64,000 nucleotides of DNA, taken from NCBI GenBank assembly GCA_027035575.1, contig JALVUQ010000086.1, forward strand, positions 27,358-91,357. The letters are read 5' to 3'. Each line of letters starts with the position of its first letter. Positions within the stretch are counted from its first letter, which is position 1. The translations under genes were made by a program, and so were the position numbers. The stretch comes from Desulfurellales bacterium (GTDB lineage Bacteria; Campylobacterota_A; Desulfurellia; Desulfurellales; Hippeaceae). The notes under the pieces were generated by a model. That model saw only the letters and a list, made by a program, of their open reading frames with translations, made no database searches and was not told the DNA's origin. This document shows, piece after piece, positions 8,662-45,417 of the stretch.

Positions 8662-8663
8662 AC

Positions 8664-15287: not shown

Positions 15288-15920
15288 ATGTTCGGCGAAT
15301 ATTTAAAAATGTTTCTGCATCACACAATCACTCTTCTTACGATTGTAAATCCCATAGCTGCCGCAAGTATTATGCTCTCCCTTCTGCCGCCAAACGACGA
15401 TAAAATCGTTAAATCCACAGCCAGAAAAGCAACTCTTATAGTTATGGTAGCCTCTTTCATAACGCTTTTTCTCGGTGAAATGATATTCAAACTGTTCGGC
15501 ATAAGCGTTCTATCCATAGAGGTTATAGGCGGAATAATTATTATGTTGATTGCCATAAATATGGTTTACGGAGAGCACTCCAAAGCACGTCATTCGCCCG
15601 AAGAACGAGATGAAGCCAAAGAAAAAGAAGATATTGCCATTGTTCCGTTGGGAATTCCAATACTTTTCGGTCCGGGCGTCATTGCCGTACTGATTTTACT
15701 TAATAATCAACTAAAAGGACTCTACTCCTATATAGTTGTGTCATTATCAATAATTACTGTCGGTATTGCCGTATATTTAACACTCTTATATGCAGCTAAG
15801 ATTGATAAATTGTTAGGCGTGACCGGTATAAAAATACTGACGAGAATTATGGGGCTTATTCTCGGAGCCATCGCTTCTCAAATGTTGATAAACGGCATAA
15901 AAGGTCTTTGGAACGGCTAA
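15288..15920 (+). CDS. MarC-family inner membrane protein
   Basis: About 210 residues with six predicted membrane helices. LLTIVNPIAAASIML in the first helix and VPLGIPILFGPGVIAVLIL are typical of MarC/UPF0056 proteins. The family has no established transport substrate and was wrongly linked to multiple antibiotic resistance in the past. An in-frame ATG lies at 15270, but I prefer 15288: the protein then starts MFGEYLKMF as in relatives, and the predicted -10 box lies between the two ATGs. The following ClC gene starts 12 bases after the stop, so the two may be co-transcribed. Confidence 0.88.
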   Translation: MFGEYLKMFLHHTITLLTIVNPIAAASIMLSLLPPNDDKIVKSTARKATLIVMVASFITLFLGEMIFKLFGISVLSIEVIGGIIIMLIAINMVYGEHSKARHSPEERDEAKEKEDIAIVPLGIPILFGPGVIAVLILLNNQLKGLYSYIVVSLSIITVGIAVYLTLLYAAKIDKLLGVTGIKILTRIMGLILGAIASQMLINGIKGLWNG

Positions 15921-15932
15921 GAAGGCAGCTCT

Positions 15933-17666: not shown

Positions 17667-17712
17667 CATCAATTATCGGAATTTGTGCTCTACGAAACGG
17701 GAGGTATTTTAT

Positions 17713-18012
17713 CTATTCTTTGCAAAAAGCATAAAAACCGGAGATTCTGATAACATAATCCACGATTTTTTGAGGCTTATGGATGAATGTATTTTTTCCT
17801 GTGGCTCTCCTGTTTTTCGATACAAAAAGAAGAACCTGCAAGCCGGCTGAAGTCATATATTCCAGCTTCTCAACATTAAAAATAACGTCCTTAGTGCAAC
17901 CCTGCAATCTTGTTTCTATCTTTTTAGCTATAGAACGGGCATTGACGGAATCAAGTCTGCCTTCAATAGTAATAATAAGACTGTCTTTAGTCTCTGTAAA
18001 TTTTAAGCTCAT
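17713..18012 (-). CDS. STAS-domain (anti-anti-sigma factor-like) protein
   Basis: A single STAS domain of 99 residues starts MSLKFTETKDSLIITIEGRL. The expected phosphorylation region reads EKLEYMTSAGLQVLL, where other members have D-S-S/T-G-L; Ser is present but the preceding Asp is Thr here. STAS proteins bind anti-sigma kinases or act in stressosome-like switches. No kinase gene is adjacent, so its partner is unknown. I start at the ATG at 18012, because upstream codons overlap the previous gene and do not belong to the domain. It is the last gene of the long minus-strand operon and faces the ClC gene tail to tail. Confidence 0.8.
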   Translation of the reverse strand: MSLKFTETKDSLIITIEGRLDSVNARSIAKKIETRLQGCTKDVIFNVEKLEYMTSAGLQVLLFVSKNRRATGKNTFIHKPQKIVDYVIRISGFYAFCKE

Positions 18013-18025
18013 ATCGTTTTGTTTT

Positions 18026-18280
18026 TTAGCTTTTAACTCTACAGCACTTTTTTGCAAATACACCGCCCACAAACTGACCGATAAAATAGGCGCTTATCAT
18101 AACCGGAAAGGTGTAAAGTTGAAATCCAAGCCCGGACAGCAGCCTCAAGGCAATAACGAAAGGAACGGGAACGTGCACCCAGATAAACCACTGTTTTGAG
18201 AATTTTTCGCTTTTTCCTCTTAAATAGCCGAAAGGCAGGTTAATCAACGCAACAAGCAGTGCCGTTGTTTGCAAACTCAT
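18026..18280 (-). CDS. Small conserved-looking membrane protein of unknown function
   Basis: 84 residues with two or three hydrophobic segments (about 4-20, 31-50 and 54-74) and a basic loop at GKSEKFSKQW. I do not recognise the family. The aromatic, proline-containing FIWVHVPVPFVIALR suggests a structured membrane helix pair and not random translation. The start overlaps the lipoprotein gene upstream by 4 bases and the stop is 13 bases before the STAS start, so it is a genuine operon member. Function unknown. Confidence 0.7.
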   Translation of the reverse strand: MSLQTTALLVALINLPFGYLRGKSEKFSKQWFIWVHVPVPFVIALRLLSGLGFQLYTFPVMISAYFIGQFVGGVFAKKCCRVKS

Positions 18281-18777
18281 TTGACGCTCCTTAAACTTTT
18301 TATTTTTATATTTTTCAGATTTATTCTCAATCTTCTTCGCTGTCTATCCTCGAATATTATGGATGAGGGTATTTTTTTACCGTCTATATTTTCACACGAC
18401 AAAACCACTATTTCCGGGTTATTGTTCTTGCAGAGCCGTGTAAAATTCCTCATCATATATAGTATCATAGGTTTATATTGCGACAAATCGTTTCCGTTTA
18501 CGTTCAACCTTTTATAGACCTTGCCGGTTTGATAGTTTTTTAGGAAAACGCTATCATCTTGTGCATAAACGCCGTATATGGAAAATCCGAAAGTGTTTAC
18601 CACATCGAGCCTCAAACTGTGTTTTGATATTGAAAAAAAACCGTCAAACTCATTTTTATTATAATACGCCCTGAAGGTGCCGTTAATGCTTTCGTTTGAC
18701 TTTACCGCTTTAAAGGTTGTGCACGAACTCAAACTAACAGCTGCCAAAAAAACTACAAACAGAATCTTTAATCTCAT
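18277..18777 (-). CDS. LolB-like outer membrane lipoprotein
   Basis: 166 residues starting with a signal peptide and lipobox (L-S-S-C, lipidated Cys19). The mature part has beta-rich text such as FSISKHSLRLDVVNTFGFSI and a C-terminal region ending in basic residues, resembling the LolA/LolB lipoprotein-carrier fold. LolB inserts lipoproteins into the outer membrane. The similarity is by pattern only and I would not assign lolB firmly. It overlaps the end of dinG by 44 bases and the next gene by 4. Confidence 0.6.
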   Translation of the reverse strand: MRLKILFVVFLAAVSLSSCTTFKAVKSNESINGTFRAYYNKNEFDGFFSISKHSLRLDVVNTFGFSIYGVYAQDDSVFLKNYQTGKVYKRLNVNGNDLSQYKPMILYMMRNFTRLCKNNNPEIVVLSCENIDGKKIPSSIIFEDRQRRRLRINLKNIKIKSLRSVK

Positions 18778-20950
18778 TTGTTTTTACAACCTCTTTCTTT
18801 AGTTTAGGCAGTGAATCCACAAAAACCTTCCCGTATGTCTTTCGTATTATTCTCGAATCGGTCACCAAAATTACACCTCTGTCATTTTTATCTCTTATCA
18901 GTCTTCCGAAGCCCTGTCTGAACTTCAAAACGGCTTTTGGTAAAGAGTATTCAAAAAAAGCGTTAACTCCCTGACGTTTCATAACCTCATATCTTGAACT
19001 CTCAACAGGAGTGTTGGGCACCTCAAACGGCAGTCTTGTTATAAAAACTATCGATAAAGCATCGCCTTTTACATCTATTCCTTCCCAAAAACTGCTTGTC
19101 GCAAACAGAAAACTTCTGTTTTTCTTAAATTCCTTCAGTGTTTCAAAATTATCAAAATCGCCCTGTCTTAAAACAACAAAGCCCAAGTTTTCAAGCTTTT
19201 CACAACTCAACTCGTATGTTTCATTCAACATCCTGTATGATGTAAAAAGAATCAATGCCCCCGCATCAACATCCTTTACGCCTTTTGCAATACTAACAAT
19301 ACACTTGGATAACGTATTTGCATACTCAGGAGAATCGGGGAATGGCGTATCGCTTGTTATAACGAGTTTGCTTGTTGAGTCGTAGTCAAAACTGTTTTTG
19401 GCTATAAACTCATTTGCATCATCCACACCGACGGTTTTTTTAAAGAAATCAAAGTTGCCGTTTACGGATATAGTGGCAGATGTAAAAATAATGCTCTTCG
19501 CCCTTTCGTAAATATTTTCCCTAAGCGCCTCGCTTATTGACAAGGGCGTTATGTTGAAACGGACATAAGTTTGTGTCTTTTTAATCCATTTTATATCAGA
19601 GCTCTCGTTCTCAAAAAAAAGATTTAAGGCATTTGAATAATCGCTTAAAGATTGAGCTACTGCGGATATATCAACATTATCTTTCCAGTGTTTCAGTTTA
19701 AGCGAAAGGTTATAGACGGCATCCGATAAGATGTTTATAGGCGGTTTAAATTCATAAAAGTTTTCTGCATTGACGGTAATCTCATCCTCTTTAAGTCCGC
19801 CGAAAAATTCCAACACCTCTTCTATAGCCTCTTTCACCTTTTTTAGCTCATTCACACACTCCGTTTTCTTTTTATCTTCTGCAACTTCAGACAGAAGTCC
19901 CGTTTCTTTACGTTTCTTTTTCATATAAAGCCTGTCCAACAGTTTTGAAATCTCGACAGTCGATACCGTTTGCGTAAAATAGTTCGTGGCATTTTTTTCC
20001 AGATTGTGAGCCTCATCAAAAATAATAGCATCATAATCCGGTAAAACACCAGCTTCTTTAACCAAAGCATCTGATAAAACGATATGGTGGTTTGCCACTA
20101 TCAAATCGGCAGACTCAAGCGAAGCCCGCGCTTTGTAATAGAAACATCTGTTTTTATAGTACGGGCATTTGGTATGTGCACAGGTTAAGCTTGTGCTTGC
20201 AACCGACTCCCATAAAGCTTCGTCAATCGCATTGGCAGATGTAAACAATTCAGCCTTAACCCCAGTCTTTGTTGAGTTTACAAACGATTTCAACTTTTCA
20301 TAAGAACCGTCCTCAAACAAAAACAGATTACCCTTCTTAAAAATCGAATCCGCTTTTCTTTTACAAAGATAGTTAGACCTGCCCAACGCTACTTTTGCGT
20401 CAAAATCAATGATATTTTTAAGAACAGGCAAATCTTTTTCCATAAGCTGCCTTTGCAGATTTATAGTATTTGTTGAAACAACAACCTTTAGAGAGTGTTT
20501 TTTTGCATACAAGATGGAAGGTATAAGATACGCAAGGCTTTTTCCTGTTCCGGTGGGCGCTTCAAAAATACCAAATTTACCCTCCTCAAGACAGTTTTCA
20601 ATCTCTTTAGATAGCTTAATCTGCTCTTTTCTTTCCTCAAAGTCTTTGAAAATCTTTTGAATTCTGCCGAATATCTCTTCTATTGACAAAACGGGTTTTT
20701 CAGGTTCACCTAAAACAACTACATCCTGGCGTTCTTTCTCAAAAAAAAGCAGATAGTCTATAACATCCCTGTACTGTACTCCGACATCGAACGCATCTTC
20801 CATACTATCCGAAAAAACAAGAATATTTCCATAAACGTTACCTTCTACTTTTTCTTCTATTGTTACCGTTTCTTCGGATATATTAACTCTAAACAGAGAC
20901 GGAATTTCGCTTTTGTTTAAAATTGCCAATGAACTATTATCTATCCTCAT
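18734..20950 (-). CDS. dinG: DinG/XPD-type ATP-dependent DNA helicase
   Basis: 738-residue superfamily 2 helicase. Walker A is APTGTGKS (131-138), the DEAH box is FDEAHNLE, and four cysteines in [17 protein letters not shown] and nearby mark the [4Fe-4S] domain of the XPD/DinG group. The C-terminal motif [14 protein letters not shown] carries the arginine finger region. The first ~90 residues form a small extra domain I do not recognise; it is much shorter than the exonuclease domain of Gram-positive DinG. Such enzymes unwind 5' to 3' and remove R-loops or recombination intermediates. It overlaps purF by 4 bases. Confidence 0.9.
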
Positions 20951-32086: not shown

Positions 32087-33361
32087 CTATTTGTTTCTTT
32101 TATCTATAACTCTGACGGCTTTACCTGCCGGCCTTTCAATTGTTCCTTCGGGAACTATCTGAATATTACAATGAAAACCAAGGAAATCATACAGTTCGTT
32201 GCCCAATCTTTCAAGCTCCTCGTGCTTAAACCCGTTTCTCCTTTCGGCAATTATTGTCATAGCGCCCTTACCTTTAACCTTCTCAAGCACGATGTTGTAG
32301 TAGGGCGTTAAATTTTTATACTTCATCAAAATACTCTCAATTTGAGACGGATAAAAATTAACCCCTTTAACTTTAAACATATCGTCCGTTCTGCCCTTTA
32401 ACCTGTCAACTCTTAAATGCGTTCTTCCGCAATCGCATTTATCCCTTGATACTATTTTTGTTATATCCCTTGTTCTGTACCTCAAAAGCGGCAGTCCTTC
32501 ACGCGTAAGTGTTGTTATCAACATTTCGCCCTCTTCTTTGTCTTCAACAACTTCAAGGGTTTCAGGGTTGACAATTTCGACTATGTAGTGGTCTTCCCAA
32601 ATATGAATGCCGTTTTTAGCCTCACAATCTATTCCCATTCCAACGCCGCCCGTTTCCGTCATTCCTATTATGTCAAACGTGTTTACGTTCATCTCCTCTT
32701 CTATTCTCTCTCTTAATTCGTTGCTCCAGGTCTCCGCACCGAGAATCGCAACCTTTAAGTTTGTTTTTTTGAAATCAAAATCTATCTCTTTTGCAACCTC
32801 CATCAACCTCAAAGGATAAGAAGCTATTGCGCAGATAGCCGTTGTTGAAAGTTCATCCATAAACTTCAATTGAAGCCTGGTTCTTCCCGCCCCTATCGGA
32901 ATAATAAAAGCGCCTATCTTTTCGGCTCCGTAGTGAAAACCGAATCCGCCGTTAAAAAGACCGAAAGACGGCGTTATCTGTATTCTATCCCTGCCTGTCA
33001 CTCCGGCCGCATAATAACATCTCGCCATTATCTCTCCCCACTGCTCAATATCTTTCTTAGTCATAGCATTGATAATAGGTGTTCCGGTTGTGCCTGAGCT
33101 CATATGCATTCTATACCATTTTTCATCATCAACAACTATATGCTTAAAGGGGTAGGCTTTTCTTAGTTCGTCCTTTTCAAGAACGGGAATTTTTCTTATA
33201 TCTTCAAGGGTTTTTATATCTTCAGGTTCAATATCTTTATACTTATCTTTAAAAATTGAGCCTGAATTTTTTATTGTTTTTAACGTATTTTTTAAACCTT
33301 CAAGCTGAAGCTTCTCAAGCTCTTCTCTTGGCATTGTTTCCATCTTCTTATTAAAAATCAT
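32087..33361 (-). CDS. paaK: Phenylacetate-CoA ligase family protein
   Basis: 424-residue adenylate-forming enzyme. The P-loop-like SSGTTGTP, the GMTETGGVGMG motif, LRYRTRDITK and the C-terminal domain from FKVKGVNFYPSQIES match PaaK. It activates aryl acetates (phenylacetate, indoleacetate) with ATP and CoA. Linked to iorA-iorB by 4-base overlap, it probably works with their product aryl-CoA; it could run in reverse to conserve ATP from arylacetyl-CoA. That direction is inference from analogous anaerobic systems. Confidence 0.9.
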   Translation of the reverse strand: MIFNKKMETMPREELEKLQLEGLKNTLKTIKNSGSIFKDKYKDIEPEDIKTLEDIRKIPVLEKDELRKAYPFKHIVVDDEKWYRMHMSSGTTGTPIINAMTKKDIEQWGEIMARCYYAAGVTGRDRIQITPSFGLFNGGFGFHYGAEKIGAFIIPIGAGRTRLQLKFMDELSTTAICAIASYPLRLMEVAKEIDFDFKKTNLKVAILGAETWSNELRERIEEEMNVNTFDIIGMTETGGVGMGIDCEAKNGIHIWEDHYIVEIVNPETLEVVEDKEEGEMLITTLTREGLPLLRYRTRDITKIVSRDKCDCGRTHLRVDRLKGRTDDMFKVKGVNFYPSQIESILMKYKNLTPYYNIVLEKVKGKGAMTIIAERRNGFKHEELERLGNELYDFLGFHCNIQIVPEGTIERPAGKAVRVIDKRNK

Positions 33362-33816
33362 TTTACCCCCTCATAAAAAGCTTTAATATTTTTATCAGGC
33401 ATTTTAAAAGCACTCAAAACACCTACAGCATCTTTTCTATCAAATATATTCTGTTTTTTAAAGAACTTTCCCAAAATAAACGAATTTGCAAAACGAATAT
33501 CCCCGAATTCCTTCAAAATCTTTACTTTATCATCGTCTTTTAAAAGGATAATCCCTTCGGGCGATTTAACCAAATTAAGAGCATAATCATAATAAAGCCT
33601 CTCCAAAACTATGCAAAAATCCGCCTCTTTCTGCGGAATATACGGGCTTGCACCCTCCCCTATTTTCATATATATCTCAACGAGTCCGCCTTTTTTTGCC
33701 ATTCCGTGAATCTCTGTGGACTTAACCGTCAAGTTTTTATTAATTGCAACCCGAGCCAAAATTTTTGACAGGGAGATGGCTCCCATACCGCCTACTCCGA
33801 GAATAACAAGCTTCAT
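33358..33816 (-). CDS. iorB: Indolepyruvate:ferredoxin oxidoreductase, beta subunit
   Basis: 152 residues beginning MKLVILGVGGMGAISLSKIL with the gamma-type domain pattern of 2-oxoacid:ferredoxin oxidoreductases, including STEIHGMAKKGGLVE. It pairs with IorA to convert aryl pyruvates (from Trp, Phe, Tyr transamination) to aryl acetyl-CoA, reducing ferredoxin. At 152 residues it is shorter than most IorB proteins (about 190-200), the loss being at the C-terminal half. It overlaps iorA and paaK by 4 bases each. Confidence 0.88.
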   Translation of the reverse strand: MKLVILGVGGMGAISLSKILARVAINKNLTVKSTEIHGMAKKGGLVEIYMKIGEGASPYIPQKEADFCIVLERLYYDYALNLVKSPEGIILLKDDDKVKILKEFGDIRFANSFILGKFFKKQNIFDRKDAVGVLSAFKMPDKNIKAFYEGVK

Positions 33817-35612
33817 TCTTTAACCTTTATCGCACCTAACGGGCAGGAAACAACACATTGACCGCAGTTTATGCAGGTTGATCGGTCTATCTCCACCACC
33901 GAATCTTTAAAAATCAGAGAAGGACACTCAAAGTTGTCTATGCAAACCTTGCAGCCCTCACACATATCCTTATCAACAAAAACTTTTTCAAACCTTATGT
34001 TTTCCTTCAACCCCTCTTTTGTATAAACACAAGGGTGTTTAAGAATTACCACAGCCGGTTTACTGCTTTTTAAAATGTACTCTTTGGCTTTGGAAAGAAT
34101 GTCCGTTACACTGTCAATATTATAGGCATCCTCGGTTTCTACAAACTCAACACCGACACCTTTTACCACATTTTCTATTCCTACGGCGTTTGCCGTGTTG
34201 TTGTACGAGTCTGTTTTATCTTGAGGAGTTTTTTGATTTCCGGTCATAGCAACCGTCGCATTATCCAAAATCACAAGCAAAAAGGATGCCCGATTATGGA
34301 TTGCATTTACCAAAGGAGTTATGCCGGAATGAAAAAATGTGGAATCCCCTATCGTCGCAACAACAGGCATTTTACTGCCAAAGGTTGAAAAAGATTTGTC
34401 AAACCCGAAAGCAAACGACACGCTCGCACCCATACAGTGAACGGTGTCAACGGCTTTCAAATTCAAACCCAGAGTATAGCAGCCTATATCTCCCGTATAT
34501 ATTGCTTTATTTTTAAACACCTTTTTTATCGCATAAAATGCGCTTCTATGACCGCAACCCGGACACAAGGAAGGCCTTTTAAAGGGCGGAGCAACAATAC
34601 TTTTTTCTTTTCTTTCTTTAATAATCCCACATTTAAAAAACAGCTCCTTTATAACATCAAGAGTCAACTCACCCTCGTTTGGCACAAAACCATTCAATCT
34701 GCCCGACACGTTTTCTCTGTTTTTTACCTGCATTTCAATAACGGGGTAGCTCTCCTCAATAACCAAAATATTTGAATGACCGCCTATCTTTTTTTGCAAA
34801 TTATCGAAATTTATAGGGTATGGCATATCAAATTTGATAACCTTTACAACACCTTCAAGATTATATTCTTCAACAATATCGCATATATAAGCAAAACTTA
34901 CGCCGCTTGTAATAATAAGAAAATCACCGTCAAAGTACTCTTTAAAATCGTTTTTCTGTCTGATTTTCTCTATTTTTTCATTCAAAGTTTTATGCAAAAG
35001 ATATCTAAAGTGCGGCGTTGCAGCAAATCTATCCGTATTTTTGTTAAAATTAACTGCCGTATCGTCTTTAAAGTTAAATTCACCTGTTTCTATATCTTCC
35101 CTTGAGTGAGAAATTCTTGTTGTCGTTCTGAGCATAACCGGAATTTCAAACTCTCTGCTTAAATTAACGGCATCTTTTGAAAACTCATAAGCCTCTTTGG
35201 GGGTGGATGGGTCTAAAACCGGAATTTTTGCAAAAAATGCCAGGAAACGTGAATCCTGTTCGGTTTGGGAGGAGTGCGGACCGGGGTCATCTGCACTAAC
35301 AACAACCAATCCTCCCGGCGTTCCCACAATTGCCGTATTCATAAACGGGTCCATCGCCACATTCAAGCCTACCTGTTTGAATGTCACGGCACTTTTAATG
35401 TTTGCATAACTTGCAGCCGTAACCTCTTCCATAGCCGATTTCTCATTAACAGACCACTCGAAATATGCGTTTATCTTGTATTTTCTTTTTAACTCGATAG
35501 CCGTCGGCAGTATCTCGCTTGAAGGAGTTCCGGGATAACCGCTGATGAATCTAACCCCAGCTTCAACAAGCCCGAATGCTATCGCCTCGTTGCCAGACAA
35601 AAATAGTTTCAT
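33813..35612 (-). CDS. iorA: Indolepyruvate:ferredoxin oxidoreductase, alpha subunit
   Basis: About 599 residues. The N-terminal half is the pyrimidine-binding-like domain (FISGYPGTPSSEILP). The middle contains the thiamine diphosphate domain with RPSLCPGCGHRSAFYAI and GDIGCYTLG, GDSTFFHSG. The C-terminus has two [4Fe-4S] motifs, CEGCKVC and CINCGQCVVSCPLGAI. Electrons pass to ferredoxin. I start at the ATG at 35612, beginning MKLFLSGNEAIAFG as in relatives; the in-frame TTG at 35639 lies too near the promoter. This is the first gene of the iorA-iorB-paaK operon. Confidence 0.93.
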   Translation of the reverse strand: MKLFLSGNEAIAFGLVEAGVRFISGYPGTPSSEILPTAIELKRKYKINAYFEWSVNEKSAMEEVTAASYANIKSAVTFKQVGLNVAMDPFMNTAIVGTPGGLVVVSADDPGPHSSQTEQDSRFLAFFAKIPVLDPSTPKEAYEFSKDAVNLSREFEIPVMLRTTTRISHSREDIETGEFNFKDDTAVNFNKNTDRFAATPHFRYLLHKTLNEKIEKIRQKNDFKEYFDGDFLIITSGVSFAYICDIVEEYNLEGVVKVIKFDMPYPINFDNLQKKIGGHSNILVIEESYPVIEMQVKNRENVSGRLNGFVPNEGELTLDVIKELFFKCGIIKERKEKSIVAPPFKRPSLCPGCGHRSAFYAIKKVFKNKAIYTGDIGCYTLGLNLKAVDTVHCMGASVSFAFGFDKSFSTFGSKMPVVATIGDSTFFHSGITPLVNAIHNRASFLLVILDNATVAMTGNQKTPQDKTDSYNNTANAVGIENVVKGVGVEFVETEDAYNIDSVTDILSKAKEYILKSSKPAVVILKHPCVYTKEGLKENIRFEKVFVDKDMCEGCKVCIDNFECPSLIFKDSVVEIDRSTCINCGQCVVSCPLGAIKVKE

Positions 35613-35643
35613 AAATTTCCCGCTTTCACTTTTTTCCAAGCCA

Positions 35644-36689: not shown

Positions 36690-36750
36690 CTCAAAAAACC
36701 CCTAAATCCAATATCCTAACCTCTAACCACCATTCACCAGTCACCAATCA
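36690..36750 (-). repeat. Degenerate heptamer repeat, right of the IS remnant
   Basis: Read on the minus strand this stretch is TGATTGGTGACTGGTGAATG followed by GTGGTTAGAGGTTAGG and GGATTTAGGGG, a mix of the GGTTRGT and GGATTTR families in the orientation opposite to the left-hand copy. Its first three bases are the stop codon of the chemoreceptor gene. Confidence 0.55.
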
Positions 36751-38397
36751 AGGCAGCATTCCTATTCTCAATCCTCCCCAGTGCTTGCCCTCTATGTAAA
36801 TAGGAACTGAGACATCATACATAGCATTGCCAGTATCCCTCATATAGGTTTGAACAAGCAGTGGTTCTGTGTTTTGACCTGCTGCAAGACCTGTAGGGTC
36901 GTTGAATATTCTCATAGAGCGGTTTCCAACGAGGTCTTTTTCATAATCCCCCGTTAACGGTTTATCGTAGATTGTATTGTGGGCTGGAAGATAACCGTTG
37001 TTATCCACAAGAACAACAAACTTGAACTTGGGGTTCATTGACAGGACTTTATCCTCTATGGGCTGTATGTATTTCTTCATAAAGTCAGTAAATCTTGTTT
37101 TATACTTCTTTGGATTAGTATTGGGAATTTCCACATAGTTTCTATCCCATATATCGGCACTTGATATTTCTCCCCTTTTTATTGCCTCTTCTATTGTTGT
37201 TTCTATCTCTTTTTTGGCATCACGGAGGATTTTGTAAACATCTTCCATAGGGTGCTCTATTCTCAAATGTCTCAAGATAGCAAAAGACTGCTTTGCAACC
37301 TCCTCCAAATCAACGCTTTGAGACGAAACATCGTTTAATTTATTAACAACGGTTTTTGTAGAATCTACAACGTGTTCAACCGTCTGAGTTACCTCTTCTA
37401 TAGATGCCGACTGTTCTTCAACCGCAGCAGTTATGCTTGATAACATCTGAGAGGCTTTGTCTATCTCATCTTTGACGTTTGTAAAGGTCTCTCTTATAAC
37501 ATTTGCATTATCGCCACTGCTTTGTATTCTATCTGCTATCTCTAAATTTTGGGTTATAAGTTTTGAAGCATTTCCGCTGACAGCATCTATCATATCCTTA
37601 ATTTCCGAGGCGTTTGATTGAGTCTTCTCTGCCAACTTTCTTACCTCATCTGCAACAACGGCAAAGCCTCTGCCAGCCTCACCGGCACGAGCAGCTTCTA
37701 TAGCAGCATTTAATGCGAGCAGGTTTGTCTGGTCTGCTATGTCGTTAATAACTCCTACAATACCTGTTATGTTTTGAAGATTTGAATCAAGCTCGTCTAT
37801 CAGCTCTTTTCCTTTTCTCATCATTTCCACATTTGCTTCTATATTGTTTTCTACATTTGTTATAATATCCAAAGCACTTTTGCTTGCATTATCTACTTCA
37901 CTCATAAAATTACTGAGCTCCTCAACGCTGTTTGATATGTCGGATATTGCTTGTGCGGAATCGTTCATTGTTGAGCTAACCGCCTCAAAATTTTCCATAT
38001 TTTCATTTATCTCTTTTATGGTTTTTTGAAGTTCAAAATTGAATTTTGCATTAAATACACTTGCCTTACCGGCTGCCGTTATAAGATTGCTTACAGTTGT
38101 ATTCATAAAACTTTTGAACCTGTCAAGAAAGGTTCCTACAAACGGTATCCCTGGTGTTTTTATCTCTTTTAATAGATCGATTCTTTCTTCCGATATTATG
38201 TCTCCGAACTCTTTATTGACCTTATCAACACTGCTTATAAGCGTTTTGTAGTAGTATAAAAAGTTTGCAAGCACAAACACAATTGACAGAATTATATAAA
38301 TAATCAGAGGTCTTTGCATATAAAAATAGCTCCCCAACCCCAATGCGAAGTATATTATAAAACTAATACCTGTAAAAGCCATCAACTTAAAAAGCAT
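36748..38397 (-). CDS. Methyl-accepting chemotaxis protein with C-terminal sensor domain
   Basis: 549 residues. Two closely spaced N-terminal membrane helices (about 5-25 and 30-50) with almost no periplasmic loop lead into a signalling domain (about 100-390) containing the hairpin tip around [20 protein letters not shown] and [19 protein letters not shown]. Unlike classic receptors, the likely sensor lies after the signalling domain (about 400-549; [18 protein letters not shown] and [12 protein letters not shown]), a Cache/PAS-like fold probably in the cytoplasm. The ligand is unknown. The stop codon falls within the adjacent repeat. Confidence 0.88.
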
Positions 38398-38541: not shown

Positions 38542-40431
38542 CTATGTCGAAGCCGACCCGAATATAATGAAAATCATTATAAAAACAGTAAGTATATAGA
38601 GCACATAGAAATATACCTTGCCGTTCATAACGAATCTGCTTATGTTGTAGCCGGCTTTCTCAGACATTTTAACCATTCTAACATAAAATTTTTCAAATAC
38701 ATCAGAGATTACAACATACGCCTCGTTGTTTGTTGTAACCTCTTTGGTTAGATATATAAATCTTAGGATATACTCTATTATGAACGAGAAGGCATTTGCA
38801 CTGAAGTACTCTTCTTCCTTTAAGTTTAAACCTCCGTTCCAGGATATAACCTTTTTTGTATTTTTTTTGCTTGACAGATAAACAATGAACGGAATAAGGA
38901 ATAAGCCTAACATAACAATGACAAAAAATGCAGGTGAAATAACTCCAAAAACAGGTTTTGCACTTGCAAGCAGCCACCCCTTAGGTACACCTAAAGCTCC
39001 TATCACAAATTTTGAATATCCCAATCCCATAAAGATATACGATGCAAAAAAACTGAATCCGAGAATTAAAATCATTAAAAAAAGTTCGGCTGTTCTCATA
39101 AAGAAAGTCGGCATAGGCTTGGCTTTCTTTTCATGATTGTATCCCAAAGCAGAGTATCCTATGAGCTTTATCATTGAAAAAGAAGCAAACCCCATAGCAA
39201 GAGACAATAAAACGCCTCCGGTTGAACTGACAACTCTATCCAAAACACTGTGGAATTGATACGATTGAAATATGGATTCAAGCAGCATCCATTCGGCAAC
39301 ATACCCGATGAGAGTAGGAAATGCGCTGAAGGATAAGCCTGAAATAACTATCCCGAGAGCAGGAATTTTACCGACACTTTTGTGAATTCCTCTCATATCG
39401 TCTATGCTTTCTTCGTGAAGCTGTTCCTTTGCTTGTCCGATGGATAAAAACAGCAGTGTTTTCGCAATTGTGTGTGTTATTGATAAAATTACGGCACTTA
39501 AAAAAGCAAACTCATACAGCGTTGATGCAGGTGAAAAAGAGTAGGCAAGAGAGGATAGACCCAAAGCTGCAAGTATCATACCGTTATTTTCAACAGTTGA
39601 GTATGCGGGCAAAACCTTGAGTTCTTTTGCAGCAGCAGCCTCCATAGCTCCCCAGAAAGCCGATACGCTTCCTAAAACTACTGCAGCAACTCCCCATATA
39701 TGCGTGTATCCGGTTATGGATATTATGCGTGCAAGTCCATAAACCCCCATCAATGTTACCGGTGCGCTTAAAAGAGCGGATGCGTTGGAGGGAGCTTTGG
39801 AGTGAGCCTCTTTCAACCAGGTGTGAAACGGAACTATGCCCATCTTGATTATAAAAGCCAGTGAGGCAAAGACCAAAAAAATTATGCTTTTTGAGCCGGT
39901 ATTTGCAAGAGACAGTGAGTTGTTGGAAGAATACAGACCTATGAAAGCCAATATTAAAGCTAATGTTGAGAGTTCGCTGAAAGCAAGAAATTGGAAAGAT
40001 TCTTTATATGCACCCGAGTGTTCGGTTATTAAAAGATATGAGAAAATTGTCATTATTTCCCAGCCCGTAAGGAATGTTATTCCGTCGTAGGCTGTCAGTA
40101 TTAAAAGCATACCAAGCATAGACAGGTTAAGGAAGATAGCCATTCGTTTTCTATAGTTGCTTCCAAAATCGATAGAGAAAATTGCAACAGCCATCCAAGA
40201 TAAGGATGCTATCATAATGAAAAGACCGCTTAATTCATCTATGTTTATGCCTACGTAACTTGAAAGCAGAAAATGAAACTTCGCAAGATACACACTGCCG
40301 TTAAACTTTGCCTCAAATCCGGCAATAAACGACAATAAAGAAGCTAAAAACGCCGTTATATAGCTTGCCTTTCTGTTTATAAATCCCAAAAACGTTCCGA
40401 TTAAAAATACGGATATGGCTATCCAAATCAT
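38542..40431 (-). CDS. HyfB/NuoL-like antiporter subunit of an Ehr-type complex
   Basis: 629 residues with about 14-16 membrane helices. The conserved ion-path motifs of complex I antiporter subunits are present: TGWEIMTIFSYLL with the key Glu, and IKMGIVPFHTWLKEAHSKAP with the Lys and the following HTWL pattern. It resembles HyfB/HycC of group 4 hydrogenases. In the complex it should form an ion channel (H+ or Na+). It is the last gene of a six-gene operon led by a fluoride riboswitch and overlaps the NuoB-like gene by 4 bases. Confidence 0.88.
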   Translation of the reverse strand: MIWIAISVFLIGTFLGFINRKASYITAFLASLLSFIAGFEAKFNGSVYLAKFHFLLSSYVGINIDELSGLFIMIASLSWMAVAIFSIDFGSNYRKRMAIFLNLSMLGMLLILTAYDGITFLTGWEIMTIFSYLLITEHSGAYKESFQFLAFSELSTLALILAFIGLYSSNNSLSLANTGSKSIIFLVFASLAFIIKMGIVPFHTWLKEAHSKAPSNASALLSAPVTLMGVYGLARIISITGYTHIWGVAAVVLGSVSAFWGAMEAAAAKELKVLPAYSTVENNGMILAALGLSSLAYSFSPASTLYEFAFLSAVILSITHTIAKTLLFLSIGQAKEQLHEESIDDMRGIHKSVGKIPALGIVISGLSFSAFPTLIGYVAEWMLLESIFQSYQFHSVLDRVVSSTGGVLLSLAMGFASFSMIKLIGYSALGYNHEKKAKPMPTFFMRTAELFLMILILGFSFFASYIFMGLGYSKFVIGALGVPKGWLLASAKPVFGVISPAFFVIVMLGLFLIPFIVYLSSKKNTKKVISWNGGLNLKEEEYFSANAFSFIIEYILRFIYLTKEVTTNNEAYVVISDVFEKFYVRMVKMSEKAGYNISRFVMNGKVYFYVLYILTVFIMIFIIFGSAST

Positions 40432-40886
40432 ACCTCTCTCCCCATAACATTTAAAAGGACGGATAATATTTCTTTTGCTTCCAACTTTTTATCAAAATAT
40501 CCCACAACGTTCGGCAGATTTAGGTTTTTTGCACCGGTTTTTGTGTCGTTTTTGTCCTCAATTATAATTATACCGAACGGCTCCGGCAGTTGAGCTATGG
40601 TTTCTGCTAACGGTTCTTTCATATTTTCAGAAACTTTACCCAATATCAACAAAATATCGGCGTGCCTCGGAGAATCCGTGAAAAATATTCCGAATCTGTG
40701 GATATTATATTGAGGGCTTGCAAGCGCTTCCATCTCAAAATTAAGCTCATTGTCATTGCCGACATCTATTGGAAAGATATGAAGCGAACTTTTGAAAACC
40801 CCGGAGATGCTTTTCACATCTTTTTTTGTTTTTTTAAAGTTTTCTGTCAACTTTTTCGTTATTCCGTATATAGCCCAAGGTTTCAT
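40428..40886 (-). CDS. NuoB/HycG-like small subunit lacking all cysteines (Ehr type)
   Basis: 152 residues aligned to the hydrogenase-4 small subunit / NuoB by DVGNDNELNFEMEALASP (family GSCNGCxIExL) and SPRHADILLILGKV (72-85; family SPRHADxLLVTG). The protein contains no cysteine at all, so none of the four ligands of the proximal [4Fe-4S] (N2) cluster exists: Asp45 and Leu48 stand where the first two are expected, and Tyr/Phe/Asp text replaces PGCPP near residue 130. It cannot pass electrons in the usual way. The fold anchors are well kept, so it is probably a structural subunit and not a decayed gene. Confidence 0.85.
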   Translation of the reverse strand: MKPWAIYGITKKLTENFKKTKKDVKSISGVFKSSLHIFPIDVGNDNELNFEMEALASPQYNIHRFGIFFTDSPRHADILLILGKVSENMKEPLAETIAQLPEPFGIIIIEDKNDTKTGAKNLNLPNVVGYFDKKLEAKEILSVLLNVMGREV

Positions 40887-40895: not shown

Positions 40896-42116
40896 CTATC
40901 TTGCGCAGTCGGCAAAATTTATGCCGAACGAATCAAGCGCGAAACTAAAATCCGTAAATATATATCCGACAAAAGAGTCTGCAAAGGCTTTATATCCGAA
41001 TACGGACGGCGTCGAAATATATACGTAATCCACAAGATTGTTTTTAAGCTCAACATAGTATGCAACAATACCGCTTGGTGATTCGCAATAGCCTACTCCC
41101 GCACCGTTTTTCTGCTCTTTTTTATGATGTTTTAAGGTTTCGTCTTGAAGTTTATCCAATTGTGTCAGTATAATGTCGCAAGAGTGAAGTATTTCATACG
41201 CTCTTACCTCCATTCTCGCCAAAGCATCTCCTGTCGTTCTGATTATAGCCTTGAAGTTTTCATAAATATCTTCGTTTTTTCTTAAATCGTCTCCAATCCC
41301 CGTTGCTCTTAATGAGGGTCCGGTTAAGCCTATGGATATTGCCTGTTTGCTTGTCAGGCTGGCAGTTTTGTAAATTCTGTCAATAAAATTCCAGCTTTTT
41401 AAGGAGTGTTGATAAAGCTCACCGAACTTTTCTTCCAGAATCTTTATTCTTTCTTTTATCGTATCTATATTGTTGCTGTTTGAGAAATTCACAGCTCCTA
41501 TGCTATTGAAGTTTTTCAAAAATCTCTCGGATGAAAACAGCTTGTTTGTTCTCAAGCTCTCTTCAAACAACCACTCAAGATGGGAAGTAAGAACGTTTTG
41601 AGCTGCTCCTTTGGAGAGCCTTGTTATTACGTAGATGTGGTTGTATATTCTTTCTAACTCAAGTGCAATAACCCTTATCCTTTTCGTATTCTCATCCGTA
41701 TCCAAACCGTAGATGTTTTCTATCGCCCTTGAAAATGCCAATGAGTGAGAAAATGCAAAGTTACCGCATACTGACTCCGCCAGCCTTAAAGCGTCTTTTG
41801 GTGTTTTGTTTATCATTAATTGCTCTATATTTCTTTTTTTGTAACTCGGGTCGATACTGACAGATAAAATCCTTTCTCCGTAGGTTTTGATATTAAACAC
41901 TCCCGCTTGACCCACGCCCGCACTAACCGGACCGTATCTGAAATTAAAAACGCCTTTGCCTTTTTTCTCACTATTTCCTATAAATTTATCCCTGTTTTTT
42001 ATAAGTTCGTAGTTATCAAATTTGTTGTTTGGAGATTTATCTATAAAGATTTTTCCTTCATTTTCAACCAAAAATTCTTCCGTATCGTTTTTATTCAATA
42101 TTCCAAGCAGCCTCAC
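40896..42116 (-). CDS. HycE/NuoD-like large subunit without a NiFe site (Ehr type)
   Basis: 406 residues of the hydrogenase-4 large subunit/NuoD family (RLAESVCGNFAFSH, ELERIYNHIYVI, GLTGPSLRATGIGDDLRK, GYCESPSG). Of the four Ni-binding cysteines only one remains: the first motif is C117-G-N-F120 instead of CGxC, and the C-terminal DPCxxC is DSFGIN (395-400). It also lacks the C-terminal processing extension of true hydrogenases. An N-terminal NuoC-like part may be absent or reduced to the first ~50 residues. Such proteins occur in Ehr complexes, whose activity is unknown. Confidence 0.87.
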   Translation of the reverse strand: MRLLGILNKNDTEEFLVENEGKIFIDKSPNNKFDNYELIKNRDKFIGNSEKKGKGVFNFRYGPVSAGVGQAGVFNIKTYGERILSVSIDPSYKKRNIEQLMINKTPKDALRLAESVCGNFAFSHSLAFSRAIENIYGLDTDENTKRIRVIALELERIYNHIYVITRLSKGAAQNVLTSHLEWLFEESLRTNKLFSSERFLKNFNSIGAVNFSNSNNIDTIKERIKILEEKFGELYQHSLKSWNFIDRIYKTASLTSKQAISIGLTGPSLRATGIGDDLRKNEDIYENFKAIIRTTGDALARMEVRAYEILHSCDIILTQLDKLQDETLKHHKKEQKNGAGVGYCESPSGIVAYYVELKNNLVDYVYISTPSVFGYKAFADSFVGYIFTDFSFALDSFGINFADCAR

Positions 42117-43492
42117 TTTATCACCCCTGTGTTTAATAGGTTATTTATTATGCCTGCTGCAAATATTGTAAGAAAAGCCAGCGTGGTGTTAAGAATAGGA
42201 ACGAAGGAACCCATAACTTCATCTTTTCTTTTTGAGGAATCGCCGTTTGTTGAAAATGACATTTTCGATACCTTATAGTTAAGGCTGAAAAACGCAACAG
42301 CCAAAAAAAGCAAAATAAGAAGCGATAACACCAATCCGAACTTAACAAACACAGCATACAGTATCAACATTTCACCCAAAAACGTTCCAAACGGAGGAGC
42401 TCCGGTAACTGCCAAGGAGGAAAGGACAAAGCTGTACGCCCCAAACGGTATTGTATTTATCAAACCCTTAATGTCGTTTACGTTTCTTGTTTTGTAAAGC
42501 GAAAGTATATTTCCTGTGGTGTAGAAAGCGGAGGATTTGGCGAATGCGTGAGAAACAATCAGGATAACAGCGCCCAGGAGTGCGTATTTTGTATCGATTG
42601 CAAGACCCATCAGAATCATACCCATATTTTCCATTGAAGAGTATGCGAACATTCTTTTATAAAATTTTTGGGTAATTAAAAAAATGCTTGCAAACGCAAC
42701 AGTTGAGAAGCCGAGAATAAATGAGAACATTTTAATGCCGTTCATAAAGGAGGAGATTTCAATCACCCTGTAAACGCCAAAAAGGGCTGTAGGCAGAAGT
42801 ACACTTGAGAATATGGCGCTTACCGGTGCAATAGAGCGTCCGTGAACATCCGGCAGCCAGGTGTGCATAGGGAAAATGCCGGCTTTTGTTGAAAAGCCTG
42901 CTATGGTTAAAGCCGCACCGATGGCAAACAGTTTATTGTCTAAAGGTGACGTGTTTAAGAGCTTTGAAATATTTAGCGTATGCATACTTGCATAAATAAG
43001 CATAACGCCTATAAGTGACATAATAAGCCCGGTTGAAACTATGATTATATATCTCCAGGAAGATTCCAAGGATGCCTCGTCATTGTCTATGGCAACAAGA
43101 AGGGCGCTTGTTATCGTTGTTGCTTCAATACCTACCCAAATAAAACCCAAATTGTTTAACGATACGCTTAACAGCATACTTAAAACAAACAGATTTAAAA
43201 AGAGATAGTACGAGCTTTTGCTTAAAAGCGGTTTTGAGACATGTTTTATATAGGTTGTGGAAAAAAGAATCGTAGTCAAATAGATGATGGAAATTACAAC
43301 AAGCATTATCTTTGAAAAACCGTCTATGTATAGCAGCCACGATACAGCCGGTTTCATAAAGATTATATAAATTGATGCCGCAATACTTGCAAGGGAGGCA
43401 AAAACGGATGAGAATTCGCTTATTTTGTCGTTTTTAGATATACAAAAGACAGAAGCCAACAAAGGAAAAAATGACGGCAGTAAATATATCAT
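42113..43492 (-). CDS. HyfF/NuoN-like antiporter subunit of the Ehr-type complex
   Basis: 459 residues and about 14 membrane helices. IWVGIEATTITSALLVA carries the key Glu, TKAGIFPMHTWLPDVHGRS the channel Lys, and AVTGAPPFGTFLGEM a discontinuous helix typical of NuoN/HyfF. This is the second antiporter-like subunit of the complex; together with the HyfB-like protein it would offer two ion paths. It overlaps the large-subunit gene by 4 bases. Confidence 0.88.
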   Translation of the reverse strand: MIYLLPSFFPLLASVFCISKNDKISEFSSVFASLASIAASIYIIFMKPAVSWLLYIDGFSKIMLVVISIIYLTTILFSTTYIKHVSKPLLSKSSYYLFLNLFVLSMLLSVSLNNLGFIWVGIEATTITSALLVAIDNDEASLESSWRYIIIVSTGLIMSLIGVMLIYASMHTLNISKLLNTSPLDNKLFAIGAALTIAGFSTKAGIFPMHTWLPDVHGRSIAPVSAIFSSVLLPTALFGVYRVIEISSFMNGIKMFSFILGFSTVAFASIFLITQKFYKRMFAYSSMENMGMILMGLAIDTKYALLGAVILIVSHAFAKSSAFYTTGNILSLYKTRNVNDIKGLINTIPFGAYSFVLSSLAVTGAPPFGTFLGEMLILYAVFVKFGLVLSLLILLFLAVAFFSLNYKVSKMSFSTNGDSSKRKDEVMGSFVPILNTTLAFLTIFAAGIINNLLNTGVIK

Positions 43493-43497: not shown

Positions 43498-44133
43498 CTA
43501 CCCCTTAAACTCTTCAAATTCTTCAATAACGTTTGAAACAGTGTCTTCCCTTAAACGCATAACTATCCCCGAAATCATAACCACGCCAATCAAGTCAAGC
43601 AAAATCCCTCCCTCTATAATTAAAGGCAGCTCCGGGAACATATATCCAGCCAACAAAAACAGGCTGTTTTCCATAACCATATAGCCTATGAGTTGGATAA
43701 ATGCGTTATTTCTCGATATTATCAAAAATATTCCCTGAAGGATAAGGGCGATGGGGATAGAGCCTGCCTTAACATAGGTTATGTCGTAGAGTGTAAAGTT
43801 GTAAACCACATACGCAACAACAACCAAAAACAGCGAGATTACTATGGAAAGAGCGGTTGGTATAACATTTCTTGGCTCTCTGTCTTTGTATGGTGCCTTT
43901 AACTTTTTAAGCATATAGTACGGTATAAAAACGCCCCTTACGGCAATAGTTAAAAAAGCCAGGATAATAAGGTTAATGCTGTTTAAATAAGTTCCGTTTA
44001 CAAATAAGAAAACGGCTATTGCAGCAGACGAAAGGGCAAATGTGATAACTATCTTTCTTAAATAGACCTGCCACTGCATAAATATAACAAAAACAATCTG
44101 CAAGAAACCGACAATCAGATATACATCTTTCAT
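43498..44133 (-). CDS. HyfE-like membrane subunit of the Ehr-type complex
   Basis: 211 residues, about seven short membrane helices. The middle part, NNAFIQLIGYMVMENSLFLLAGYMF, matches HyfE, and in complex I terms corresponds to NuoK (ENSLF with the conserved Glu; polar residues in helices). It ends in a charged tail (REDTVSNVIEEFEEF). In the family it joins the NuoH-like heel to the antiporter arm. The start overlaps the NuoH-like gene by 4 bases. Confidence 0.82.
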   Translation of the reverse strand: MKDVYLIVGFLQIVFVIFMQWQVYLRKIVITFALSSAAIAVFLFVNGTYLNSINLIILAFLTIAVRGVFIPYYMLKKLKAPYKDREPRNVIPTALSIVISLFLVVVAYVVYNFTLYDITYVKAGSIPIALILQGIFLIISRNNAFIQLIGYMVMENSLFLLAGYMFPELPLIIEGGILLDLIGVVMISGIVMRLREDTVSNVIEEFEEFKG

Positions 44134-45080
44134 AGCGCTCCTCCCGTTGTGTAGAAAACGATAATCGCAAGAAAAGCAAAAGAGAATGCAACTGCAACGT
44201 ACTCAAAGTTTTTAAACAGTTTATATTTCGATACGGTTGACTGTATGGTTGCAAATATGACGCTTAAAACTATCATTTTGAGCAGATGTATAAAGCCGTA
44301 TATAATTACGGAAATCAAACCGACCTTCATAGGAACCCAAAACGGTATGAGAAAATCGTTTAAAAACACGCTCATAAGAAGAAACTGTTTTATGTAACTT
44401 CCCCACTTCATAAAGGCAAGTTCTCTTCCTGAATATTCCATCTCTATTGCCTGGTCAATCATACCAAATTCGTTGTTTGAGTGAGATTCTATAGGCAACT
44501 TGCCTGTTTCGACAATCAAAGCCATAAAAAATGCAAACACAACAAACCAGTGAATTAAAGACAGATACCATTGAGTTGATGTCTGCATTATGTTGTTGAC
44601 AACGTAGGGGTTATTTGTGTGTGAAATGACTCCGAATGTGATGAAAATAAGCACTATTATGGGCTCGGCTAAAGCTCCTATTGACGATGCTCTCGATACG
44701 CCCAAGTGTGAGTAGTTGCTTCTGCTGTCCAAAGAAGCTATCTTTTTTAAGGAGGCAATTGCTCCGAATATCAAACCGCCGCCGATGAAATCCACAACAG
44801 GACCGAAAGTCAGAGGAAAAGCCGTTATTATGGGCAAAACCAGCGTCAAAAACATATACATAGCAAATGTTACGTAGGGAACTATCTGAAAAAGAGGTGA
44901 TGCAACTTCAGGAACAACGCTCTGTTTGTTGAATAACTTGTATAAATCGTAGTAAGGCTGAAAGATTGAAGGACCGACTTTGGATTCGTATCTTTCCGTT
45001 ATTTTGCCGAATATTCCGGCTATCAGCGGGGCTGTTATAAGTACGTAGAGCAACTGGAGTACACTTAAAAGAAACAGCAT
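44130..45080 (-). CDS. HyfC/NuoH-like membrane subunit of the Ehr-type complex
   Basis: 316 residues with about eight helices. FGKITERYESKVGPSIFQPY near the N-terminus and IESHSNNEFGMIDQAIEMEY with acidic residues followed by SGRELAFMKWGSYIKQ are NuoH/HycD signatures; this subunit links the soluble module to the membrane arm. I set the start at the ATG at 45080: AAGGAG sits 7 bases upstream, and the longer open frame to 45125 would run through the riboswitch. As the first gene of the operon its start codon is the point of fluoride control. Confidence 0.9.
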   Translation of the reverse strand: MLFLLSVLQLLYVLITAPLIAGIFGKITERYESKVGPSIFQPYYDLYKLFNKQSVVPEVASPLFQIVPYVTFAMYMFLTLVLPIITAFPLTFGPVVDFIGGGLIFGAIASLKKIASLDSRSNYSHLGVSRASSIGALAEPIIVLIFITFGVISHTNNPYVVNNIMQTSTQWYLSLIHWFVVFAFFMALIVETGKLPIESHSNNEFGMIDQAIEMEYSGRELAFMKWGSYIKQFLLMSVFLNDFLIPFWVPMKVGLISVIIYGFIHLLKMIVLSVIFATIQSTVSKYKLFKNFEYVAVAFSFAFLAIIVFYTTGGAL

Positions 45081-45114
45081 ATGACAACTCCTTACAAATA
45101 GTTTATATACTTTT

Positions 45115-45168
45115 GCAGGAGTCATCGGCTCATAAAACAGAGCAATTTCGAGGCGAACTCCACCGCCT
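45115..45168 (-). promoter_or_regulatory. Fluoride (crcB) riboswitch in the leader of the Ehr-type operon
   Basis: On the minus strand the leader folds as the fluoride aptamer. P1 is AGGCG (45168-45164) with CGCCT (45055+100 to 45051+100, that is 45155-45151). GGAGT (45161-45157) forms a perfect 5-bp pseudoknot with ACTCC (45122-45118). P3 is GCTC with GAGC. The invariant GATG precedes the 3' pseudoknot strand and the linchpin T follows it at 45117. The residue pair that is usually A and T is here G and C, a covariation. Translation control is likely: ACTCCT (45122-45117) is also exactly complementary to AGGAGT of the ribosome binding site (45092-45087). Confidence 0.92.
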
Positions 45169-45184
45169 TAAAATCACAGGCAGG

Positions 45185-45213
45185 TTTATATCAAAGCCAA
45201 ACGATAATGTCAA
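45185..45213 (-). promoter_or_regulatory. Promoter of the fluoride-riboswitch/Ehr operon
   Basis: Consensus TTGACA (45208-45213), 17 bases, TATAAA (45185-45190). Transcription would begin near 45178, ten bases before the aptamer, leaving a leader of about 98 bases. This is one of the best promoter matches in the window. Confidence 0.8.
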
Positions 45214-45277
45214 TAGGTTGAGAAAGAGTATAGAGTATGAACATAGAAGCAGAAATCAAAATCCCACCTTAATTTAA

Positions 45278-45370
45278 AATCCATCATCCAAAATTCAAAA
45301 TTGCTGCATAATTCTCACCACCCAAAACCTACCGCCCATCACCCAACACCTTCTTACCCACCGCCTTTTC
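45278..45370 (-). repeat. Mixed heptamer repeats between the Ehr and rml operons
   Basis: Contains AAAATCCATCATCCAAAATT (GGATTTR family in reverse, then ATTCAAA) and CACCACCCAAAACCTACCGC with CACCCAACACC (GGTTRGT family in reverse). No gene is present in the gap 45214-45448 apart from these repeats and the rml promoter. Confidence 0.5.
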
Positions 45371-45388
45371 AAAACTGAAAAATCCTCC

Positions 45389-45417
45389 TTGACTTTGTTT
45401 CTTTTTATTTCTATGCT
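45389..45417 (+). promoter_or_regulatory. Promoter of the rml/pgl glycan operon
   Basis: TTGACT (45389-45394), 17 bases, TATGCT (45412-45417), then AAAGGAG (45436-45442) before the rmlA ATG at 45449. No other comparable promoter is seen before 49995, so it may drive much of the operon. Confidence 0.65.

Follow-up and report, generated by a model that had tools for sequence, protein, structure and literature searches.

A conserved fluoride riboswitch ahead of a complex I-like operon without redox ligands in a Desulfurellales bacterium

Formate hydrogen lyase was reported among the targets of the crcB motif in 2010 (Weinberg 2010, PMC2864571, available text), in agreement with the first-pass annotation of this DNA, which had stated that formate hydrogenlyase-like targets were already on record. 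A 2024 review, in the part available, explains these targets as anaerobic formate oxidation and ranks Na+/H+ antiporters directly behind exporters in frequency as riboswitch targets (PMC11139923). The locus described here shares with the 2010 riboswitches, as far as the available text describes them (PMC2864571), the aptamer, the predicted ON logic and target genes of the hydrogenlyase type. It differs in that its target has neither hydrogenase nor Fe-S ligands and in that its long-range pair is G-C. The same text mentions overlapping terminators (PMC2864571), whereas translational control through the Shine-Dalgarno sequence is predicted for our leader.

On the protein side, the closest solved relatives of the large, small, H and L subunits are Mbh (6cfw) and E. 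coli formate hydrogenlyase (7z0s/7z0t). In contrast to these, the complex lacks a NiFe site, a small-subunit Fe-S cluster and a ferredoxin-type subunit among its six genes. Ehr complexes, as described in the accessible portions of two reports (PMC6349859, PMC3569383), are likewise related to group 4 hydrogenases and complex I, carry antiporter-like subunits and lack NiFe ligands. Coupling of redox reactions to ion translocation is suspected for Ehr, not proven, according to the available part of one of them (PMC6349859). Our complex resembles Ehr as a hydrogenase-like assembly without NiFe, but the presumed cytoplasmic redox coupling does not extend to it, as the N2 ligands are incomplete in 65 of 65 bacterial members; in its branch, ferredoxin cysteines are additionally absent, and a fluoride riboswitch precedes the genes. 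Mrp-type antiporters share with it antiporter-type, F/L-like subunits with the Glu/Lys pattern and, presumably, gradient-driven work. Mrp antiporters consist of MrpA to MrpG and are not known to contain NuoH or the NuoB/NuoD pair. The complex, in contrast, retains NuoH- and NuoB/NuoD-like parts without redox centres, and its six genes match complex I/hydrogenase families instead of the Mrp subunit set. CrcB/Fluc and CLC-F also stand behind fluoride riboswitches, and CrcB shares an operon with the complex at three loci. The complex is unrelated to both in sequence, with no homology by Pfam families in any of the six genes, and its own transport activity is presumed. In the literature searched, no redox-free complex controlled by fluoride was described; an earlier description may exist elsewhere, subscription papers having been mostly outside the search.

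The aptamer and its expression platform

The Rfam covariance model RF01734 (Fluoride) was run on the 64 kb stretch of DNA analysed here (the window). It matched the minus strand at 45176-45109 with 42.1 bits (E 2.8e-08; gathering score 34 bits) over model positions 1-64, its full length, bearing out the fluoride aptamer that the first-pass annotation had recognized in this leader. The elements listed there, P1 (AGGCG/CGCCT), the pseudoknot (GGAGT/ACTCC), P3 (GCTC/GAGC) and GATG, were all read in the window sequence. No second match reached the gathering score in the window, and this was the single RF01734 match in the genome assembly (1.72 Mb, 108 contigs, 96% complete).

Co-variation was scored in an alignment, A3, of 30 aptamers (29 distinct) at 11 pairs from P1, the pseudoknot and the long-range contact. 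Standard pairs occupied 97.5% of the cells at these pairs versus 87.9% in shuffles, and 7 of the 11 had both sides changed in some sequence. For four of five measures, 0 of 500 shuffles scored as high; the fifth, further pair types, was reached by 38 of 500. Of the 29 distinct aptamers, 7 have no intact outermost P1 pair. In the Bacillus cereus aptamer the long-range contact is a reverse Watson-Crick pair, A5-U35 (PMC8004769, available part), to which, in our reading, the long-range column of A3 corresponds. The G-C that takes the place of the usual A-U had been suspected to be co-variation, and it is: 17 distinct aptamers carry G-C, 12 carry A-U and 0 a broken pair. Among leaders that precede the complex, 26 have G-C, 19 A-U and 2 G-U (47 parsed leaders of 57, the 10 unparsable ones left out).

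The consensus promoter proposed at 45185-45213 could likewise be read from the sequence (Table 1), and the RNA start is therefore predicted within a few bases of the aptamer. A consensus promoter scan of 44900-45400 reported no promoter because the scanner requires T as the final -10 base. Just upstream of the promoter, a G-rich repeat-like stretch occupies 45260-45380 of the window on the minus strand. ATG 45080, preceded by AAGGAG, is the most likely start of the first gene; a longer listed ORF, with its start at 45125, would begin within the aptamer.

A terminator scan of 44900-45400 gave no terminator-like site, and transcription termination was rejected as the expression platform on this result. 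Folding of the leader at minimum energy paired GATGACTCCTGCAAA, a segment that includes the 3' strand of the pseudoknot, with the Shine-Dalgarno region down to 45083. Pair probabilities were 0.96-1.0 at nine of the ten printed positions of this pairing, and the tenth was split between two neighbouring partners. In a swap test of 51 leaders, which controls relatedness and base composition only in part, the strand with its own downstream 48 nt averaged -16.2 kcal/mol versus -11.7 kcal/mol with swapped partners, and 0 of 10,000 permutations were as strong. The 23 leaders of branch A gave -15.2 and -11.3 kcal/mol, respectively, and here, as in a set of 45 less redundant leaders, 0 of 10,000 permutations were as strong. 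Six of the 57 leaders (L019, L020, L024, L025, L026, L038) had been excluded beforehand because of one or two intervening frames before the complex (four leaders) or a long gap (two). These folds suggest translational control by Shine-Dalgarno sequestration as the likely expression platform. Without fluoride, GATGACTCCTGCAAA would pair with the Shine-Dalgarno region and keep expression OFF. With Mg-fluoride, part of the same strand would be held in the pseudoknot, which would free the ribosome-binding site and turn expression ON.

Table 1. Features of the leader and operon, in window coordinates
Feature	Position	Strand	Basis
-35 hexamer TTGACA, likely promoter	45208..45213	(-)	read from sequence
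-10 hexamer TATAAA, 17 nt after -35	45185..45190	(-)	read from sequence
Fluoride riboswitch aptamer RF01734	45109..45176	(-)	Rfam match and co-variation
Predicted OFF hairpin, pseudoknot 3' strand GATGACTCCTGCAAA with Shine-Dalgarno region	45083..45126	(-)	minimum-energy fold, pair probabilities, swap test
Shine-Dalgarno AGGAGT, pairs with ACTCCT (45117-45122) in the predicted OFF state	45087..45092	(-)	fold
H subunit, NuoH/HycD-like membrane protein	44130..45080	(-)	PF00146
E subunit, HyfE-like membrane protein	43498..44133	(-)	NF008556, 46.8 bits, under cut-off 136
F subunit, HyfF/NuoN-like antiporter-type proton channel	42113..43492	(-)	PF00361
Large subunit, HycE/NuoD-like, without CxxC pair	40896..42116	(-)	profile and PDB comparison
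Small subunit, HycG/NuoB fold, zero cysteines	40428..40886	(-)	sequence, PDB comparison, structure model
L subunit, HyfB/NuoL-like antiporter-type proton channel	38542..40431	(-)	PF00361
Methyl-accepting chemotaxis protein, 144 nt behind last gene	36748..38397	(-)	PF00015

Six genes, their redox ligands and their proton paths

Behind the aptamer follow NuoH-, HyfE-, HyfF-, HycE-, HycG/NuoB- and HyfB-like genes, in this order, with intact reading frames in the window (Table 1). Pfam assigned complex I/hydrogenase-type families to H, F, the large subunit and L, and none to E and the small subunit; every NCBIfam score fell under its cut-off. In PDB comparisons, H was closest to formate hydrogenlyase subunit 4 and an Mbh subunit, the large subunit to 6cfw_L, and the small subunit to 6cfw_J and 7z0t_G. 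A structure model, made for the small subunit only, agrees with group 4 hydrogenases in fold. The chemotaxis gene behind the last of the six may be co-transcribed with them, and its product is probably not part of the complex. Further along the same strand, an indolepyruvate ferredoxin oxidoreductase-like pair lies at 33358-35639 of the window, its alpha subunit scoring 634.2 bits against a cut-off of 650.9.

In group 4 [NiFe] hydrogenases, two CxxC pairs of the large subunit bind NiFe. The large subunit of the window has cysteines at 117, 313, 344 and 404 only, none of them in a CxxC pair that could bind nickel-iron, and the small subunit, free of cysteine, offers no Fe-S ligands of this kind. 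Neither a NiFe site nor an N2 Fe-S cluster can therefore form, and the first-pass description of a hydrogenase-like target with no metal site stands. The position that we take to be the first C-terminal NiFe ligand of the large subunit holds F in 76 of 78 proteins and Y in the other 2, the mapping of this second pair being our own reading, with the PDB alignment ending before the C-terminal motif.

Relatives were collected by a scan with the large-subunit alignment, which gave 77 loci. The order H-E-F-large-small-L was found as far as contigs extend, with exceptions at L055, where H and E lie behind L, and L032, where F is split into two frames. Several loci rich in G+C have long chance frames lying across the complex genes. 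Small subunits were sorted by their ligands for 78 members, the window included. Branch B comprises 13 archaeal loci (Thermococci, Archaeoglobaceae and another euryarchaeote, Sulfolobales, Thermoplasmatota), and 13 of 13 carry four N2 cysteines and four cysteines of an N-terminal, ferredoxin-like domain. Branch C, 28 loci that are mostly Actinobacteria and Eremiobacterota by their titles, has the ferredoxin-like cysteines in 28 of 28, zero N2 ligands in 26 and one in 2, and the full set in none. The 37 proteins of branch A lack the ferredoxin-like cysteines, and none has a complete N2 set; 30 retain 0 ligands, 1 retains 1, 4 retain 2 and 2 retain 3. Complete N2 ligands thus occur only in the 13 archaeal members. 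The small subunits with two or three of the four N2 cysteines (L015, L016, L017, L018, L023, L030) are possible intermediates of Fe-S loss. In the 36 branch A loci listed, the six-gene block showed no CxxCxxC frame.

A maximum-likelihood tree was rooted with two NuoD-like proteins of the window genome. UFBoot values were 100 for A with the Thermococci/Archaeoglobi part of B, 74 for C with the Sulfolobales/Thermoplasmatota part, 82 for A alone (FastTree support low, 0.18) and 100 for C alone; B was not a clade. The simplest reading is that the N2 site was probably lost twice separately, in the two bacterial branches A and C, the second loss being less firmly placed than the first.

The proton-path residues behaved differently from these variable ligands. 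In the F subunit, E123, K203, K319 and E374 are identical in 68 of 68 proteins; in the L subunit, E125, K196 and K324 are identical in 76 of 76 and E380 in 71; in the H subunit, K48, R130 and E215 are identical in 65 of 65. The F and L residues align with conserved Glu and Lys of Mbh/complex I antiporter-type subunits, presumably the TM5 Glu and the TM7/TM8 Lys, so that both subunits show the Glu/Lys pattern of Mrp-type antiporters throughout. With redox ligands variable or lost and pump residues invariant, the redox parts thus decayed while the pump parts persisted. A working hydrogenase or formate hydrogenlyase was rejected on the ligand counts of the large and small subunits; judged by its ligands, the target is neither.

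Riboswitch linkage and other genes behind the aptamer

Linkage could be scored at 64 of the 77 loci, those with the first gene and upstream sequence; 12 lack the gene and one is cut at it. An aptamer precedes the complex in 56 of the 64, bacterial as well as archaeal; nine of these are sub-gathering-score matches. By branch, the counts are 28 of 30 (A), 10 of 10 (B) and 18 of 24 (C). Model R1, which has six base pairs and was trained on A3, found a same-strand aptamer within 1.6 kb ahead of the complex at 47 of the 64 loci, and within 450 bases at 43 of these. The nine further aptamers, all in branch C, are genome-wide Rfam matches of 24.0-28.4 bits just before or at the first gene. As A3 trained R1, R1 matches at A3 loci (the window, 11 of the 77 loci and leaders of further relatives, including those of L004 and L009) are not independent. 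By the R1/Rfam criteria, eight of the 64 loci have no aptamer (L027, L028, L053, L054, L061, L064, L070, L072), with L053 scored as aptamer-less on a weak R1 match (E 0.11) and R1 matches above E 0.03 not tabulated in part of the scan. At the gathering score, Rfam alone gave 12 of the first 18 loci an aptamer before the complex, and of the six without one, three do not include the first gene.

At E 0.001, RF01734 matched in 43 of 48 and 26 of 30 genomes reached through complex loci, the set of 30 including two of the 48 and one unrelated genome. In a comparison set it matched in 8 of 36 genomes outside the class of the window genome and in 20 of 25 inside it. On these sequence comparisons, the riboswitch and its complex target are real and conserved, and the two bacterial branches without the full Fe-S set mostly retain the riboswitch. 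One Eremiobacterota genome carries, at L069, two neighbouring copies of the complex, at 5617-12703 and 13936-19047, each with an aptamer before it, the second weak. At L012, a cobalamin riboswitch (4701-4865, 91.1 bits) lies near the complex.

Genes with a known or candidate link to fluoride lie around several aptamers. The arrangement aptamer - crcB - DUF190 - complex was found in L020, L025 and L038 (Bacteroidetes, two genomes), and at L019 one frame with partial CrcB and DUF190 takes the crcB-DUF190 place. In a genome of the window's order (G018), a second aptamer leads a dynamin-like - MutS - MutS - enolase series, and the second aptamers of G009 and G022 are each followed by a dynamin-like gene. 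Among the second aptamers of class members, those at L149 (3552-3617), L150 (4442-4502) and L151 (19095-19159) each lead a dynamin-like GTPase gene, followed at L151 by two MutS-like genes and an enolase; L148 is similar by eye. In genomes without CrcB, further aptamers are followed by MutS pairs, by a MoxR-type AAA gene and by DUF6062, the families being named for L159, L161 and L165 and the remaining loci judged by eye. At L161 an aptamer below the gathering score (161-217) precedes the MoxR-type AAA ATPase gene together with two genes that Pfam did not match; by eye, L156, L164 and L172 resemble it. DUF6062 lies behind a weak fluoride aptamer at L165 (296-353) and directly behind the complex at L011 (12609-13259), and is a candidate fluoride-related family. 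An MFS transporter directly behind a fluoride aptamer at L168 (4379-5611), in a Spirochaetales genome without CrcB match, is a candidate fluoride-related transporter. Additionally, a search for plasmid homologues returned 87 records, none covering 80% of the query, and the one examined further was from Mycobacterium branderi. This plasmid (L174) has two divergent aptamers (40.9 and 40.4 bits), with a universal stress protein and a phosphatase on one side, a NUDIX gene and the six genes on the other, and an enolase beyond.

Ion antiport and alternative functions

With no N2 cluster, no NiFe site and no electron-carrier protein encoded among the six genes, electrons presumably cannot drive the complex; the H-E-F-L membrane arm would therefore run on an ion gradient, as in Mrp. 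The product is most likely a redox-free ion-translocating complex. Our main reading, to which we assign a probability of about 0.6, is that in fluoride the RNA frees the Shine-Dalgarno sequence and the complex is made, to act as a predicted gradient-driven proton/ion antiporter. HF leaking into the cell would release H+ and F-, and the antiporter would move the resulting protons out, either against a cation or with F- itself as the coupled ion. The linkage of riboswitch and complex at 56 of 64 loci, the invariant pump residues and the missing redox ligands favour antiport, as does the rank of Na+/H+ antiporters among riboswitch targets (PMC11139923); the crcB and DUF190 genes in the operons of L020, L025 and L038 and the enolase found near the complex in L174 and in another aptamer-led operon, of a class member, count for it as fluoride-related neighbours. 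Against antiport count the retention of NuoH and NuoB/NuoD parts without redox chemistry, the eight loci without aptamer together with the nine sub-gathering-score matches, and the six branch A members that keep two or three N2 cysteines. The archaeal members keep the full Fe-S set and could be electron-driven, and one mechanism may therefore not fit the whole family.

A tentative and rather unlikely alternative is that the complex itself exports fluoride. F- or HF would enter what was once the quinone/NiFe cavity, where the large, small and H subunits meet, and be expelled by proton inflow through the antiporter-like subunits. Such a complex would possibly form a third class of fluoride exporter, an electron-free complex I descendant whose cavity and proton channels work as a proton-driven fluoride pump. 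The distribution of known exporters lends this some weight. The first-pass annotation saw no crcB in the window, and CrcB proved unmatched in the whole assembly as well; indeed, 25 of 25 genomes of the class gave no match, nine of them only 76-88% complete. Among complex-bearing genomes, CrcB was matched in 17 of 48 and absent from the matches of 31. In the Mesoaciditoga phylum (103 genomes), CrcB was matched in 0 of 9 complex-bearing versus 43 of 94 other genomes, a weak contrast because the nine are related. Five of the six CLC matches in the window genome were compared with the PDB, and all five were closest to ClcA-type Cl-/H+ exchangers; CLC-F was rejected for these five. Four of 27 genomes searched for CLC (G075, G076, G106, G108) have neither CLC nor CrcB, and the complex is the sole cluster behind a fluoride riboswitch in the window genome. 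However, crcB lies within the same operon in L020, L025 and L038, which points to a complementary role, and 17 genomes carry CrcB and complex together, so that a general exclusion of CrcB by the complex was rejected. An MFS transporter adjoins another aptamer in genome G096, some genomes are incomplete, and no known fluoride transporter is homologous to the complex. Antiport of the proton load was placed before export because the crcB-complex operons favour a complementary role. If export were true, a riboswitch-induced, complex I-derived fluoride pump would span bacteria and archaea and substitute for absent CrcB/CLC-F. As a separate observation, two of the six CLC genes lie in the window, at 12312-14054 (-) and 15933-17666 (+); all six are unlinked to the fluoride aptamer, and six are many for a genome of 1.7 Mb.

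A working redox enzyme (formate hydrogenlyase, hydrogenase or ferredoxin oxidoreductase) that serves a fluoride-induced metabolic shift is very unlikely. Its subunits are homologous to formate hydrogenlyase and Mbh, the Fe-S ligands are present in archaeal relatives, and formate hydrogen lyase targets are explained in this way in the available part of the 2024 review (PMC11139923). Such an enzyme would nevertheless have to work with a small subunit without cysteine, a large subunit without CxxC, no CxxCxxC frame in the six-gene block of the branch A loci listed and NCBIfam scores that are all under cut-off. A slightly poorer case, and a highly improbable one, can be made for an aptamer with altered specificity or lost fluoride binding. 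Its sign would be the G-C long-range pair, found in the window and in eight named Desulfurellales/Campylobacterota aptamer loci (L002, L004-L010), but G-C and A-U forms both precede the same complex, the window aptamer scores above the gathering cut-off, and known fluoride genes adjoin aptamers in relatives. That the complex is a decaying remnant without function is scarcely credible: redox ligands were lost stepwise and F lies in two frames in L032, yet the proton-path residues are invariant, gene order is retained in nearly all loci and the reading frames are intact in the window.

Formate hydrogen lyase genes have been listed as riboswitch targets since 2010 (PMC2864571, available text). 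In the family described here, genes of this type cannot build the hydrogenase site. With no such site and no complete N2 cluster in the bacterial branches, ion or fluoride transport is the better reading for this family. For complex I research, the family offers a natural experiment, in which the membrane arm and the coupling module were conserved after, apparently, two losses of redox chemistry.
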